Shown here in pieces: positions 33,459 to 59,730 of a stretch of 59,730 nt of DNA (position 1 is the first letter of the stretch; each line of letters starts with the position of its first letter). The DNA is taken from assembly GCA_014359475.1 (NCBI GenBank), contig JACIZI010000025.1, forward strand, positions 1 through 59,730. The letters run 5' to 3'. Made by a program: the position numbers and the translations under genes. Source of the DNA: Marinobacter sp. (GTDB lineage Bacteria > Pseudomonadota > Gammaproteobacteria > Pseudomonadales > Oleiphilaceae). The notes under the pieces are model-generated. The model did no database searches. It was not told where the DNA came from and worked only from the letters and a program-made list of their open reading frames with translations.

Positions 33459-35579
33459 GTGAGTCCACAACCAATCAAGAAAACCTTCGAACTGGGCGGC
33501 CAGACGGTCACTCTGGAGACCGGACGTATTGCCCGCCAGGCAACCGGTGCGGTGCTGGTCACCATCGATGATGTGTCTGTACTGGGTACCGTCGTCGGTG
33601 CCAAAGAGCCAAAACCGGGCCAGGGATTTTTCCCGCTGACCGTCAACTACACCGAGAAGACCTATGCCGTGGGCAAGATTCCCGGCGGCTTCTTCAAGCG
33701 TGAAGGTCGTCCTTCCGAGAAGGAAACCCTGACTTCGCGCCTGATTGACCGTCCGATCCGTCCGCTGTTCCCGAACGGCTACATGAACGAAGTTCAGGTT
33801 GTCCTGACCGTCATGTCTGCCAACAAGACCCACGATCCTGACATTGCGGCCATGCTGGCGGCTTCTGCCGCTCTGGCCATTTCCGGCATCCCGTTCGACG
33901 GTCCGATCGGCGCGTCCCGCGTGGCCTTTACCAACGAGCGTGGCTATTTCCTCAACCCGACCTTTGAAGAACTGGAAACCTCCCTGCTGGACATGGTGGT
34001 TGCCGGTACTGAAGACGCGGTACTGATGGTTGAGTCCGAAGCCAAGGGGCTTACTGAAGACCAGATGCTGGGCGGTGTGTTGTTTGCCCATGAGGAAATG
34101 CAGTCGGCCATCAAGGCGATCAAAGAATTTGCCGAGGAGAACGGCAAGCCCCGCTGGGACTGGCAGCCGGAGCAGGAAAATACCGAATTACTGAACGCTA
34201 TCGATGGCGAGTTCCGCGGAGCCATCGAGGAAGCCTACAGCATCCGTGACAAGATGGAGCGTTACGGTCGCCTGAGCGAAGTGAAATCCGCGGCGGTCGA
34301 GAAGTTTGCCGGTGACGAAGAAGGCCAGCCCTCCGAGGAAGAGGTCCGGAAGTACTTCGCCAAGATCGAGAAAACTGCGGTTCGCCAGCAGGTGCTGGAC
34401 GGCAAGCCGCGGATCGACGGTCGTGACAACAAGACCGTTCGACCGATCGAAGTGGAAGTGGGCGTACTGCCGAGTGTTCATGGCTCCGCGCTGTTCACCC
34501 GTGGCGAGACCCAGGCCATCGTGACGGCCACCCTGGGTACTGCCCGCGATATGCAGATCATCGATGCTCTGGAAGGCGAACGTAAGGATCCGTTCCTGTT
34601 CCACTACAACTTCCCTCCCTACTCCGTAGGCGAAGCGGGGCGTATGGGCAGTCCGGGCCGTCGTGAAATTGGTCACGGGCGTCTGGCCAAGCGCGGTGTG
34701 CAGGCAGTCATGCCGACTATTGAGGAATTCCCGTACACTATCCGCGCGGTATCCGAGATCACTGAATCGAATGGTTCCAGCTCCATGGCTTCCGTGTGTG
34801 GTTCTTCCCTGGCGCTGATGGATGCGGGTGTGCCGCTGAAGGCTCCCGTAGCCGGTATTGCCATGGGCCTGGTCAAGGAAGGCGACAAATTTGCGGTTCT
34901 GACCGACATTCTGGGCGACGAGGACCACCTGGGCGATATGGACTTCAAGGTTGCCGGTACCAAAGACGGTGTCACTGCCCTGCAGATGGACATCAAGATC
35001 CAGGGCATTACCGACGAAATCATGGAAATTGCCCTGGAGCAGGCCCATGAGGCACGTCTGCATATCCTGGGCGAAATGAACAAGGTACTGGGCGAATCCC
35101 GTGCCGAGCTGTCTGACCGTGCGCCGAGTATCACTACCATCAAGATCCATCCGGACAAGATCCGTGACGTGATCGGTAAAGGCGGTGCCACCATCCGTTC
35201 CATCTGTGATGAGACTGGTGCTTCCATCGATCTGGACGACGACGGCAACGTGAAGATCTACGCGGACAACCAGGCGGCTGCCCAGGCTGCAGTCAACCGC
35301 GTGAAGGAAATCACCGCCGAGATCGAGGTGGGTGCCATCTACAAGGGCAAGGTTGAGCGTATTGTGGACTTCGGTGCCTTTGTGAATATCCTGCCTGGCA
35401 AGGATGGTCTGGTGCATATCTCCCAGATCTCCGAGCGCCGTATCGAGAATGTCACTGACGAGCTGAGCGAAGGTCAGGAAGTTCTGGTCAAGGTGCTGGA
35501 TGTCGATAACCGTGGACGGGTGAAGCTGTCCATGAAGGAAGTTCAGGAAGGCGAGCAGCCGACTGACTTCGGAGCCTGA
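33459..35579 (+). CDS. pnp: Polynucleotide phosphorylase
   Basis: The 706-residue phosphorolytic 3'-5' exoribonuclease is a component of the RNA degradosome. It has two RNase PH-like domains (first from about residue 10, second from about 320 with [18 protein letters not shown]), a connecting helical domain, then KH ([20 protein letters not shown]) and S1 ([32 protein letters not shown]) domains. The start is GTG 33459, preceded by CAGGAG. It ends the operon; an intrinsic terminator follows. Confidence 0.99.
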
Positions 35580-35606: not shown

Positions 35607-35642
35607 AAACCCGCCTTTCCTTTTGGGATTGGCGGGTTTTTT
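35607..35642 (+). terminator. Terminator of pnp
   Basis: AAACCCGCC pairs with GGCGGGTTT around a 15-nt loop and continues into TTTTTT. It lies 28 bp after the pnp stop. Confidence 0.85.
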
Positions 35643-35670
35643 CGTTTCAGGACTGGTGGGGTTGGTGGAG

Positions 35671-35784
35671 GCGCTGTTCAGGGGAGGGCTTTTCAAAACA
35701 CGCCCGTGAATACGTCCCTGTAGGGCTCGGGCGCAGCCATCCATGGCTGCTTACGGTTTTGAAAAGCCCTCCCCTGAACAGCGC
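35671..35784. repeat. Structured hairpin element, copy 1
   Basis: Arms of 29 bp (35671-35699 and 35756-35784) are perfectly complementary, beginning GCGCTGTTCAGGGG. They enclose a 56-nt loop that starts ACGCCCGTGAATACGTCCC and contains its own 8-bp stem (GCAGCCAT and ATGGCTGC). The same loop, with different but again perfectly paired arms, occurs at 59594-59705. The element lies between the pnp terminator and a convergent hydrolase gene. There is no open frame of interest. Confidence 0.9.
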
Positions 35785-35843
35785 TAGATACCTCGTGCCA
35801 GTCTCTTTGTTGCCCCTACGCCTGCGATTCATTCACGGTGCTT

Positions 35844-36746
35844 TTATTCCGCGTCCTTCCGCGGTTTCCGCGGCAAATCATCGTTACCCTCCATAAACTC
35901 CAACAGCCCCTCTTTAAACTCCGGCAACACAAACGTCCCCCCGTGTCCGGTATCGGTCCGCATCAGGGTTTTGGGCTCGTCTGCTGCTTCATACAATCGC
36001 AGGCCATGGTGGAAGGGGATCAGTCCGTCGCGGACGCTGTGAATGACCATAACCGGCACCGGGCTGATGCGGGCGATGTGGTCCACGCCTTCGTAATCGT
36101 CGGGAATGGTCCAGCTGAGGGGGATTTGCAGGGGCCAGGTAAGCCAGAAGCCGTCGAGTTTTTCCCGGGTGATGGCGCGAAAGCCGGAGAAGGTGGCATC
36201 GAGGATGACTCCGTCCAGCGGCGGTTGCCGGTTTCGCTGGGTCCATTCGGCAGCAACGGGGATGGCGAGGCCGCCGCCGAGGCTCTGGCCCAGAATGAAC
36301 AAGGGCTTTCCTCCAAGCCGGGCGGGTTGGCTGGCGAGCCAGCGCAGGCCGGTTTCTGTGTCGCTCAGGGTGCCTTCGAGGGTGGAGACACCGGTGGAGC
36401 GGCCGTAGCCCCGGTAGTCCAGGGCGAAGACGTTGTAGCCTTTGTCCGGGAGCCAGGCGACGTTGAGGATGTGGCTGCTGATGTTCTGGGCGTTGCCGTG
36501 GAGGAAGTAGACGGTCCCCTTGGCCGGAGTCTGTACGGCCGGCAGCCACCAGCCGTGCAGGGTTTCACCGTCCGGGGATTGCAGGCTGATGTCTTCGTAT
36601 GCCAGGTTGAGCCGGTCCGGGGTGATATAGGTGGCCCGGTCCGGGTAGAAGAACATACCACTGCAGCCGCCGAGCAACAGGGCAAGGCCGGTTGCCATGG
36701 TGATGCGTTGGAGCTTCAGAAATAAGCGTGCAGACCCATCTGCCAT
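35844..36746 (-). CDS. Alpha/beta-hydrolase lipoprotein
   Basis: The 300-residue protein has an N-terminal signal with lipobox LLGGC (Cys28), so it is probably an outer-membrane or periplasmic lipoprotein. The hydrolase fold follows: oxyanion region YFLHGNAQN, nucleophile elbow GQSLGG (Ser155), Asp240 in HSVRDGLIP and His268 in DTGHGGTF. It resembles the FrsA/BEM46-like serine hydrolases; the substrate is unknown. It overlaps the end of the DUF4105 gene by 31 bp and is the last gene of that operon. The final ten residues (LPRKPRKDAE) are encoded by a dispersed repeat, so the original C-terminus was replaced. A shorter start at 36698 is possible but would leave a poor signal peptide. Confidence 0.85.
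   Translation of the reverse strand: MADGSARLFLKLQRITMATGLALLLGGCSGMFFYPDRATYITPDRLNLAYEDISLQSPDGETLHGWWLPAVQTPAKGTVYFLHGNAQNISSHILNVAWLPDKGYNVFALDYRGYGRSTGVSTLEGTLSDTETGLRWLASQPARLGGKPLFILGQSLGGGLAIPVAAEWTQRNRQPPLDGVILDATFSGFRAITREKLDGFWLTWPLQIPLSWTIPDDYEGVDHIARISPVPVMVIHSVRDGLIPFHHGLRLYEAADEPKTLMRTDTGHGGTFVLPEFKEGLLEFMEGNDDLPRKPRKDAE
35847..35876. repeat. Dispersed CCGCGG repeat, short copy
   Basis: The 30-bp stretch (TTCCGCGTCCTTCCGCGG and on through TTTCCGCGGCAAA) is nearly identical to 47597-47628 and to the inverse complement of 47461-47489. Here it forms the 3' end of the hydrolase gene. Confidence 0.75.
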
Positions 36747-47437: not shown

Positions 47438-47460
47438 CCGCGGAAAGACAAAAGAAGACT

Positions 47461-47625
47461 TGCCGCGGCAACCGCGGAAGGACGCGGAATAAAGGCCAGA
47501 GAACATTGGCCACGGACTTGCGCGGACAGGCCCCGTCGCCAACATGGCAGTGAAGGTCCGTGTCGTCCGTGGCCCAATAATCTTTAAATCTTTTCTTTCC
47601 GCGTCCTTCCGCGGTTTCCGCGGCA
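47461..47625. repeat. Long CCGCGG-rich inverted repeat element
   Basis: Outer arms of 29 bp (47461-47489 and 47597-47625) match at 28 of 29 positions as inverse complements. Inside are perfect 10-bp arms GGCCACGGAC (47508-47517) and GTCCGTGGCC (47565-47574). The outer-arm sequence also occurs once at 35847-35876. It lies between the convergent MarR and lon genes and may end both transcripts, although T runs are weak. Confidence 0.8.
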
Positions 47626-47629
47626 AAAA

Positions 47630-57829: not shown

Positions 57830-59542
57830 ATGAGTGAACAGGACATCAAGATTCCCGATCTCGGCGGTGCTGAGGAAGTCGAGGTTATTGAAGTCATCGT
57901 CAGTGAGGGGGATGCCGTTGAAGAAGAGGATCCCATTCTCACTATAGAGTCTGACAAGGCATCCGTAGAACTGCCCTCACCGGGTGCTGGCAAGATCACC
58001 TCTATCACTGTGAAAGTCGGTGACAAGGTGAAAGAAGGGGATGTGGTCGGCAAATACGAGACCTCTGACGGCAGTGATGACTCCGCAGAGCAAGAAGAGT
58101 CTGCCCAGGCAGAAGAGGCGTCAGAAGGCAAAAAAGACGAGTCCGAAGAGCAGAGTGCCAGGGACGCCGAGGGCGAGCCTGCGGACAGCAAACCGGCTGA
58201 GAAGAAAAGAACTGGCGGCACCCGCAAGGAAGTGGTGAAAGTCCCGAGCCTGGACGGCTTCGAAGATGTGCCGGTAATCGAAATCAACGTCTCGGCAGGG
58301 GATGAGGTTGGCGAGGAAGACCCGCTGGTAACCGTGGAATCTGACAAAGCCAGCATGGAAATCCCCTCACCCTATGCGGGCAAGGTGGAAAAAGTACTGG
58401 TCAAGGAAGGCGACAAACTTTCCGAAGGGGATGACCTGCTGGAAATGACCATCGTGGAAGATGACGGTGGCGACGAAGAGGCCGGTGAGTCGGAGGATAG
58501 CCGGCAGCCGGAAGGTGAAAAGGGCAGCAAAGAAAAGCAACCGACCACCCGGGAGGACGACGGTAAAGACTCCGCTGAATCAAGCGGCCGGGCCCAGGGT
58601 TCCACCTACGAACCCCCGTCCCCCGGCACCAAAGTGCACGCCGGTCCCGCAGTGCGAAAACTGGCCCGGGAACTGGGTGCCGATCTGACCCGCATCAAGG
58701 GCTCCGGGCCCAAGAACCGCATCCTCAAGGACGACGTACAGGATTACGTGAAGGGCCAGCTACAGCAAACCCAGCAGGGCAGTGGCGCAGCCGCCGGCGG
58801 CGCTGCGGGCATCCCCGGCGTGAAATTGCCTGACTTCAGCCAGTTCGGCGAAGTGGAGCGCAGCAGCATGTCCCGCATGATGTACGCCACCGCCAACAAC
58901 ATGCAGCGCAGCTGGCTGAACGTGCCCCACGTCACCCAGTTTGAAGATGCGGACATCACAGACATGGAAGAGTTCCGCAAGTCCCGCAAACAGGAAGGCG
59001 AGAAGAAGGGCATCAAAATGACCCCGCTGCCGTTCCTCCTCAAGGCCTGTGCCAGAGCCCTGGAAGAGCTGCCGCAGTTCAACGTGTCGCTGGACATGGA
59101 GCGACGGGAGGTGGTTCACAAGAAATTCATCCACATCGGCATTGCGGTGGATACGCCCTACGGCCTGATGGTTCCGGTGATCCGGGACGTGGACCAGAAG
59201 GGCCTGTGGGAACTGGCGGCCGAAAGTGCCGAACTGGCCCGGAAAGCCCGGGACAAGCAGCTCAAGCCGGCGGAAATGCAGGGTGCCTGTTTTACCATCA
59301 CCAGTCTGGGTGGTATCGGCGGCACGGCGTTTACGCCGATTGTGAATACGCCGGAGGTGGCGATCCTGGGTGTCTCCAAAGCAGCCATGAAACCAGTCTG
59401 GGACGGCTCCGAGTTCCAGCCTCGGCTGATGCTGCCGCTGTCGTTGTCCTACGACCACCGTGCTGTTAACGGTGCCGACGCGGCCCGGTTTACTACCTTG
59501 CTGGCCTCGTTGCTTGGGGATATTCGGGGGTTGCTGCTTTAG
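57830..59542 (+). CDS. aceF: Dihydrolipoyllysine acetyltransferase (pyruvate dehydrogenase E2)
   Basis: The 570-residue core protein of the pyruvate dehydrogenase complex has two lipoyl domains (lipoylated Lys43 in ESDKASVEL and a second in ESDKASMEI), each followed by a charged, flexible linker. A peripheral-subunit-binding domain (VRKLARELGADLTRIKGSG, about residues 267-300) and the catalytic acetyltransferase domain follow, ending with SLSYDHRAVNGADAARF, which holds the active-site His and Asp. E. coli has three lipoyl domains; two are usual in pseudomonads. A hairpin element of the 35671 type lies just downstream. Confidence 0.98.
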   Translation: MSEQDIKIPDLGGAEEVEVIEVIVSEGDAVEEEDPILTIESDKASVELPSPGAGKITSITVKVGDKVKEGDVVGKYETSDGSDDSAEQEESAQAEEASEGKKDESEEQSARDAEGEPADSKPAEKKRTGGTRKEVVKVPSLDGFEDVPVIEINVSAGDEVGEEDPLVTVESDKASMEIPSPYAGKVEKVLVKEGDKLSEGDDLLEMTIVEDDGGDEEAGESEDSRQPEGEKGSKEKQPTTREDDGKDSAESSGRAQGSTYEPPSPGTKVHAGPAVRKLARELGADLTRIKGSGPKNRILKDDVQDYVKGQLQQTQQGSGAAAGGAAGIPGVKLPDFSQFGEVERSSMSRMMYATANNMQRSWLNVPHVTQFEDADITDMEEFRKSRKQEGEKKGIKMTPLPFLLKACARALEELPQFNVSLDMERREVVHKKFIHIGIAVDTPYGLMVPVIRDVDQKGLWELAAESAELARKARDKQLKPAEMQGACFTITSLGGIGGTAFTPIVNTPEVAILGVSKAAMKPVWDGSEFQPRLMLPLSLSYDHRAVNGADAARFTTLLASLLGDIRGLLL

Positions 59543-59593: not shown

Positions 59594-59705
59594 GAGCCGG
59601 GCCGGGATCTCTTTTCAGGACACGCCCGTGAATACGTCCCTGTAGGGCTCGGCTCCAGCCATCCATGGCTGGAGACGGTCCTGAAAAGAGATCCCGGCCC
59701 GGCTC
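59594..59705. repeat. Structured hairpin element, copy 2
   Basis: Arms of 28 bp (59594-59621 and 59678-59705) are perfectly complementary, starting GAGCCGGGCCGGGATC. The 56-nt loop (59622-59677) matches that of copy 1 except where its inner stem differs, and there the change again keeps pairing (CTCCAGCCAT with ATGGCTGGAG). It begins 51 bp after the aceF stop. Confidence 0.9.
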
Positions 59706-59730
59706 TATGGACTCCACGGATATCTCGACA

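Follow-up and report, generated by a model that had tools for sequence, protein, structure and literature searches.

The window examined here, the whole 59,730-nucleotide stretch of Marinobacter sp. contig JACIZI010000025.1, carries at positions 35671–35784 (RNA sense minus) a long hairpin, one of dozens per genome, which on balance is probably a dispersed structured RNA of the TwoAYGGAY type that binds CsrA/RsmA by two heads presented on a sequence-free stem. The original prediction of perfect 29-bp arms around a 56-nt loop at this position, with a second copy at 59594–59705, was confirmed by mechanical inverted-repeat detection. In copy 1 the arms that form stem P1 (RNA 5′ arm, 35756–35784; RNA 3′ arm, 35671–35699; both read on the minus strand) are 29 nt each, 100% complementary and separated by 56 nt, and in copy 2, also in minus sense, arms of 28 nt (59594–59621 and 59678–59705) are 100% complementary around a 56-nt loop. 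With R1, a covariance model built from 81 copies of the family, the two score 114.3 and 115.3 bits, respectively, and copy 1 scores 36.0 bits with the Rfam TwoAYGGAY model RF01731. Compared with 200 shuffled sequences, the 114 nt of copy 1 fold at far lower energy whichever strand is taken (minus, z −11.5; plus, z −11.0). The RNA is read from the strand opposite to that first examined: a plus-strand reading of the element was rejected in view of the mismatch asymmetry, the tandem G.A pairs and the Rfam match described below, all of which favor the minus strand.

Read as RNA, the loop may be represented as a junction from which two hairpins, P2 (5–8 bp) and P3, extend. For copy 1, P2 is GCAGCC-AUGGAU-GGCUGC (35733–35750, minus; placed by sequence, fold and loop counts) with the hexaloop AUGGAU at 35739–35744, whose A and U are also paired in the predicted fold, and P3 is GCCC-UAC-AGGGAC-GUA-UUCAC-GGGC (35702–35726, minus) with the hexaloop AGGGAC at 35714–35719; the hexaloops of copy 2 lie at 59661–59666 and 59636–59641. 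P3 was placed comparatively, UAC/GUA being swapped for CCC/GGG in other copies while distant copies keep the pairs. Across the family, P3 consists of UAC/GUA (CCC/GGG in 5/79) on GCCC/GGGC with a UUCAC bulge, and about 50 of 79 copies have a tandem A.G/G.A beneath the fifth pair of P2, the remainder being mostly Watson-Crick there. That the loop is nearly constant, as had been claimed from the two window copies, holds for the family at large: both hexaloops, closed by C-G, contain ANGGA in 79/81 copies. Their second base is free to vary, being G in 39 (P2) and 67 (P3), U in 31 and 12 and A in 9 and 0 of 79 copies, with all four bases occurring at this position in distant copies. Two CANGGAYG motifs are present in 78/81 copies and in 23/31 distant copies, and the exact string RUACARGGAUGU in 5/31 distant copies. 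The published consensus for RsmA is CANGGAYG, and that for CsrA, from systematic evolution of ligands by exponential enrichment, is RUACARGGAUGU (PMC7705225; PMC9308961, on RsmV); for RsmE the high-affinity form is an ANGGAX hexaloop that sits immediately on a stem, the stem-loops of RsmZ being C-G closed (PMC4005645). Sequence and covariation give the element a CANGGAYG hexaloop that directly caps a stem closed by C-G; in the minimum-energy fold of copy 1, the P2 site alone is closed in this way.

The association of these loops with the long hairpin was also found in 1.25 Mb of the window's genome sampled blind to hits, window included. Structures of this sort are uncommon there: 26 inverted repeats with loops of 8–130 nt scored ≥18, and 17 of them were the element; both sites were present in 15/16 inverted repeats with loops of 45–66 nt, and 16/19 CANGGAYG pairs spaced 16–40 nt apart fell inside the element. 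A different long palindrome, of the GTAGGTCGGATTAGCGAAGCGTAATCCGACA type, with arms of 31–34 bp and loops of 22–30 nt, recurs in Marinobacter at loci L028, L041, L073 and L023.

The stem is maintained by paired substitutions. The arms vary from locus to locus, each remaining self-complementary, with a stem length mode of 28–30 bp (79 distinct arm pairs); the long stem is lost (arms ≤11 pairs) in 5/89 copies. The arms of the two window copies do differ, as first noted, although almost throughout rather than by a few substitutions, so that these two paralogues alone cannot prove compensation. The claim that pairing is kept by compensatory changes was borne out at orthologous loci in other species, where four species groups gave 24 double Watson-Crick replacements against 7 G.U, 1 A.C and 8 other single-side states (group Y alone, 7 double and 0 single changes). 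This count covers groups X, Y, Z and W; left out were group V, which contains a wrong L039 copy, group T, whose register is shifted, and groups W2 (1 changed state) and U (2 changed states). RNAalifold predicted 38 pairs on the 81 copies, 25 of them with changes on both sides. Among 31 distant copies from 28 loci in other genomes, 98.2% of cells pair and 35/37 pairs show both-side changes, giving a covariation of 0.981 in an alignment that was itself fitted to the structure, against 0.194 for shuffled and 0.132–0.165 for slid alignments. The element offers a clean example of paired substitutions at orthologous stems.

The remaining mismatches are strand-asymmetric. Over 79 distinct arm pairs (2250 base pairs, with one scoring rule for all mismatches), the minus sense has 44 G.U against 11 A.C (p 8.7e-6) and 39 purine-purine against 5 pyrimidine-pyrimidine mismatches (p 1.4e-7), an asymmetry carried by the 51 Marinobacter-type arms (34 vs 8 and 31 vs 2). 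The mismatches seen in minus sense are those tolerated by a folded single strand, and therefore the folded form matters, in agreement with the initial view that selection or a copying process acts on it. The asymmetry cannot separate RNA from single-stranded DNA. The copies in this test were picked by a pattern that requires both loops, so that their loop intactness is ascertained; the 1.25 Mb sample is free of that bias.

The proposed check for further copies with a covariance model revealed a large family whose arms are not identical everywhere. A 25-base piece of the loop occurs 24 times in the window's genome (≤3 mismatches) and 0 times when reversed, and an exact 23-base piece was found in 79 stretches of named genomes, 70 titled Marinobacter and 9 from Oleiphilaceae, Halomonas, Pseudohongiella and further gammaproteobacterial records. 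The R1 alignment (A1) comprises 80 of 83 non-redundant copies (excluding L025:377, L031:6754 and L060:3391) and the window copy, four weak-armed copies having been removed before it was assembled; loci from named genomes were collected by the exact core string and those from the window's genome by R1. R1 matched 68 places in the window's genome at E≤0.001 and 3–99 places apiece in 39 genomes of the genus; at E≤1e-5 it matched 40/229 genomes of the class, the window's genome being included in both sets; 16 class carriers counted more fully had 7–96 places each. In a phylum sample, 14/249 genomes matched, every one of them in the same class. Each per-genome count is limited by how many candidates were scored: 17 in the class search with R1, 15 in the phylum, 100 in the genus, and 150 in the window's own genome and the 16 carriers. 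Searches for the element in phages gave no match and in E. coli found none, whereas one Marinobacter plasmid carries it. Among viral contigs, the core string is present in four stretches, one of which passes R1; contig IMGVR_UViG_2724679354 carries a copy at L213:6202–6305 (minus), shortly followed, by eye, by a terminator-like palindrome. Dozens of copies per genome, with two CsrA-type sites in the head and a long stem that stays paired as its sequence changes, suggest a partly mobile, scattered set of CsrA-binding RNAs in marine gammaproteobacteria.

Among the 64 strongest places of the 68 in the window's genome, 12/12 pairs less than 200 nt apart face outward when read as RNA (p 6e-8 for an expectation of one in four), and so do 33/33 pairs within 300 nt at the named loci, a set that includes the 9 non-Marinobacter loci and whose pairs are not independent since many are likely orthologues in different species. 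Outside the named loci the outward rule fails, with one outward and one tandem pair in L140–L188 and tandem copies in genomes G468, G490 and G301. In G468 six copies stand in tandem (L217:2900–4200, minus) with a period of about 227 nt, each unit holding an additional palindrome, presumably a Pseudomonas-type GTAG repetitive extragenic palindrome (REP). Copy 2 is probably one half of an outward pair, judged by its flank, with a copy near the end of contig C5. By eye, window positions 59594–59730 and the last 130 bases of C5 (L102) have the hairpin-adjacent spacer in common, with one base differing, and from this common end spacer contigs C18 and C5 are probably neighbors. Hairpin copies terminate several contigs in the window's assembly.

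The original suggestion of a mobile palindromic element is supported by two other genomes, in which miniature inverted-repeat transposable elements (MITEs) carry the hairpin; around the Marinobacter-type copies, terminal repeats do not exceed chance. In G095 (nine loci read) the hairpin lies in the middle of a MITE of 208–209 bp with the terminal repeat CTAAATACGTGTTCCGAAT, occurring as three subfamilies whose arms differ and yet are self-complementary; in G127, most of the seven loci read hold the hairpin inside a different MITE. Four copies in G149 are without common flanks. Of 30 distant copies, 27% have outer inverted repeats (score ≥11), whereas among 588 mismatched flank pairs the figure is 0.5%; in the Marinobacter-type set they occur at 1/44 loci, that one being from Pseudohongiella. 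The terminal repeat flanking the hairpin in G127 is similar to GCAGCCTGTCGG(A/G)CTTAAG, which in the window's genome forms MITE-like inverted repeats without the hairpin at L229, L230, L255 and L261. An outer GTAG occurs in some copies and GTAGCCTG at 5/43 loci. A relation to REP doublets forming hairpins (REPINs), prompted by the flanking GTAG and the tandem array in G468, was unsupported given this low frequency of GTAGCCTG and the unflanked Y1 transposase (Y1_Tnp) genes: for the two such genes of the window's genome, no hairpin was present within the fetched flanks. In this one test there was thus no positive evidence for a recombinase or transposase acting on a single-stranded hairpin, which had been put forward at the outset.

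With respect to genes, where the gene RNA-downstream of the hairpin faces it, its stop lies within 60 nt in 77/89 copies; gene context was taken from our own open reading frame calling, not annotation. Copy 1 lies 92 nt beyond the stop of a polynucleotide phosphorylase gene (33459–35579, plus; Pfam RNase_PH, PNPase, KH_1 and S1), with a terminator-like stem and T-run, noted by eye, between them at 35607–35643. In RNA sense, an alpha/beta hydrolase gene (35844–36746, minus; Pfam Hydrolase_4) ends about 60 nt upstream of copy 1. Copy 2, near the contig end, is 51 nt from the stop of a dihydrolipoamide acyltransferase gene (57830–59542, plus; Pfam 2-oxoacid_dh and Biotin_lipoyl). A second repeat of the window, TTGCCGCGGCAACCGCGGAAGGACGCGGAA, is paired with its complement at 47460–47626 as an inverted repeat of 30 nt (97%, 107 nt between); the same repeat sequence was seen by eye at about 35850–35880, in the 3′ end of the minus-strand gene adjoining copy 1. 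At gathering score, the sole Rfam match in the window is a tmRNA gene (1902–2268, minus; 215.7 bits).

Several lines connect the hairpin to the TwoAYGGAY family. At a permissive threshold, RF01731 matches minus 35669–35786 at 36.0 bits, below its cut-off of 43, and the cmscan alignment of copy 1 covers model positions 1–168 and includes the external stem P1 enclosing both hairpins; the same permissive scan gives weaker microRNA-type matches to the bare stem. In the window's genome, the 16 RF01731 places at E≤0.1 all coincide with R1 places. RF01731 and CsrB belong to one Rfam clan, CL00106. In the class, RF01731 scores above its cut-off in 11/229 genomes with up to at least 11 places each. Because of these matches, the shared clan and the existence of RF01731 loci with long stems, the element is regarded as a variant in or next to this known family. 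The window's genome encodes a CsrA with L4 and R44, which we take to be RNA-binding residues.

From this we infer transcription of the element, binding of CsrA, a sink function and a function of the stem, as follows. Minus-sense transcription through the element would give a near-perfect, sequence-free stem of about 28 bp closing a junction, which would present two short hairpins, each capped by a C-ANGGAY-G hexaloop that forms a CsrA/RsmA-type site. Each copy would most likely bind one CsrA dimer via both heads, and a bound copy would either add to a genome-wide CsrA sink or mark its carrier transcript. The probable role of the long stem is to keep the head insulated from whatever transcript hosts it, and cutting by RNase III may free the head. 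A bolder version, clearly less likely than not, is that Marinobacter and its relatives possess a mobile, distributed CsrA sponge, in which tens of TwoAYGGAY-type heads, spread by MITEs and outward pairs and released by RNase III from many read-through transcripts, might supplement or replace single CsrA-sequestering small RNAs (sRNAs), so that CsrA activity would read the summed transcription of many loci.

A number of observations weigh against a CsrA-binding RNA of this kind. The exact RUACARGGAUGU was found in 0/81 Marinobacter-type copies. The minimum-energy fold of copy 1 makes P2, but in it CCC pairs with GGG around UACA, hiding the second GGA, and RNAalifold also draws the P2/P3 head differently; the P2/P3 drawing is preferred because comparative pair counts favor it, and the disagreement slightly reduces confidence in the CsrA reading. 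CsrA needs neither the conserved junction bases CGAGC and UUYRC nor a 28-bp stem. The RF01731 match to copy 1 is unlisted when exactly 118 bases are given, the window's genome is unlisted in the RF01731 class search (11 candidates scored per genome), and only one of its 16 RF01731 places passes the cut-off, at 45.3 bits. The presence of csrA fails to separate carriers (36/40) from other genomes (158/189), and the genomes matching csrA do not include G256, a carrier that is 98% complete. Orientation to genes is weakly biased, the RNA-upstream gene being on the same strand in 99/164 copies (p 0.01). An own promoter and intrinsic terminator, as in CsrB/RsmXYZ genes, were not detected in 53 distinct copies scored against a sigma-70-type consensus and scanned for T-runs: upstream promoter scores averaged 2.50 in sense, 2.79 in antisense and 2.61 when shuffled, and a T-run follows the stem in 1/53 copies; in the RNA-downstream flank, the antisense promoter score (2.92) exceeds that in sense (2.24). 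Finally, the 28 distant arm pairs alone show the mismatch asymmetry in the same direction without significance (G.U 10 vs A.C 3, p 0.09; 8 vs 3, p 0.23), and G.T and purine mismatches are milder in single-stranded DNA too.

These points leave room for other explanations. The hairpin could be a structured RNA of read-through transcripts with another main job, such as 3′-end protection, RNase III processing or gene insulation, its loops serving another protein. The long near-perfect stem, the conservation of junction bases beyond the loops, the facing stops of downstream genes within 60 nt and the outward pairs, by which a transcript entering from either direction would receive a hairpin in sense, all accord with such a role, whereas the near absence of T-runs speaks against it, and it leaves both the two ANGGA loops with their free N and the Rfam clan unexplained; we consider it rather unlikely. 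Of the explanations first suggested, a structured RNA at transcript ends fits best as regards the structured RNA, while the orientation bias of 99/164 copies supports the location at ends weakly.

An improbable alternative is a mobile palindrome acting at the DNA level, REPIN- or MITE-like, whose single-stranded hairpin is a transposase or recombinase substrate and whose CsrA-like loops are incidental. The common-flank copies inside MITEs in G095 and G127, the excess of outer inverted repeats around distant copies, and the outward pairs, which resemble REPINs, together with the outer GTAG of some copies, argue for it; the single Marinobacter-type locus (Pseudohongiella) with such a repeat, the few loci with GTAGCCTG and the Y1 transposase genes without a nearby hairpin argue against it, as does the central position of the hairpin in two different MITEs, where it appears as cargo. 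Replication template switching at quasi-palindromes could also keep the arms perfect without function, consistent with the rarity of intermediates in group Y and with G.U making up 44 of 2250 arm pairs. Yet correction that is neutral as to strand would not be expected to leave mismatches that differ between the strands, nor does it account for the two intact loops in 15/16 long-armed hairpins of that loop size or the pair exchanges within P2 and P3, and this explanation is very improbable. The two-headed CsrA-binding RNA remains the preferred reading; it assigns a concrete function, open to testing, both to an orphan family of structured RNAs and to a repeat common among marine gammaproteobacteria.

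Compared with known mobile repeats, the element resembles MITEs in that terminal inverted repeats enclose it in G095 and G127, but its Marinobacter-type copies are without terminal repeats above chance and the hairpin is cargo. Like the GTAG- or CGTC-tagged palindromes of REPs and REPINs, as characterized in PMC3733652, it is dispersed, extragenic and often in inverted pairs; the stems given there are of 5–13 bp against about 28 bp in the element, and GTAG is found in a minority of its copies. TwoAYGGAY was published as a probable RNA that is not cis-regulatory (PMC2864571), and CsrA binding had already been proposed for it from motif matches, before the present analysis, in PMC4333381. The entire RF01731 model aligns to the minus strand of copy 1; like the element, TwoAYGGAY recurs at several places within some other genomes of the class and has a tandem G.A in one stem (described in PMC4333381), and the RF01731 loci L282, L283 and L285 have long stems as the element does. 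It differs from TwoAYGGAY in the second loop base, which is G rather than Y in 39 (P2) and 67 (P3) of 79 copies, and in P3, which is short and has the UUCAC bulge, the corresponding stem of the Rfam model being long. Of the 13 genomes with RF01731 matches, 3 have R1 matches as well. At L282 and L283, matched by RF01731 and with near-perfect long stems, the first hairpin alone keeps an ANGGA loop and the second has a CACGACGTCG-type loop. Added here to the earlier CsrA idea are tens of dispersed copies, compensated locus-specific stems, outward pairs and carriage in two different MITEs; among titles and abstract openings of the open-licence literature, no earlier description of this dispersed form was recognized.

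A genus search with the RsmY model alone, the RsmX, RsmZ and CsrB models being outside it, gave weak matches in 25/61 genomes and none above the cut-off; one RsmY candidate, L109, was rejected as by eye it resembles a gene end with a terminator. CsrB/CsrC and RsmX/Y/Z are dedicated sRNA genes with many sites and their own promoter and terminator, whereas the element occurs as tens of scattered copies with two sites each and shows no promoter or terminator signal. What they have in common is GGA loops on short stems (PMC4005645). If the reading proposed here is true, a global regulator would be titrated by dispersed mobile RNA heads and not, as with these sRNAs, by one dedicated gene product.
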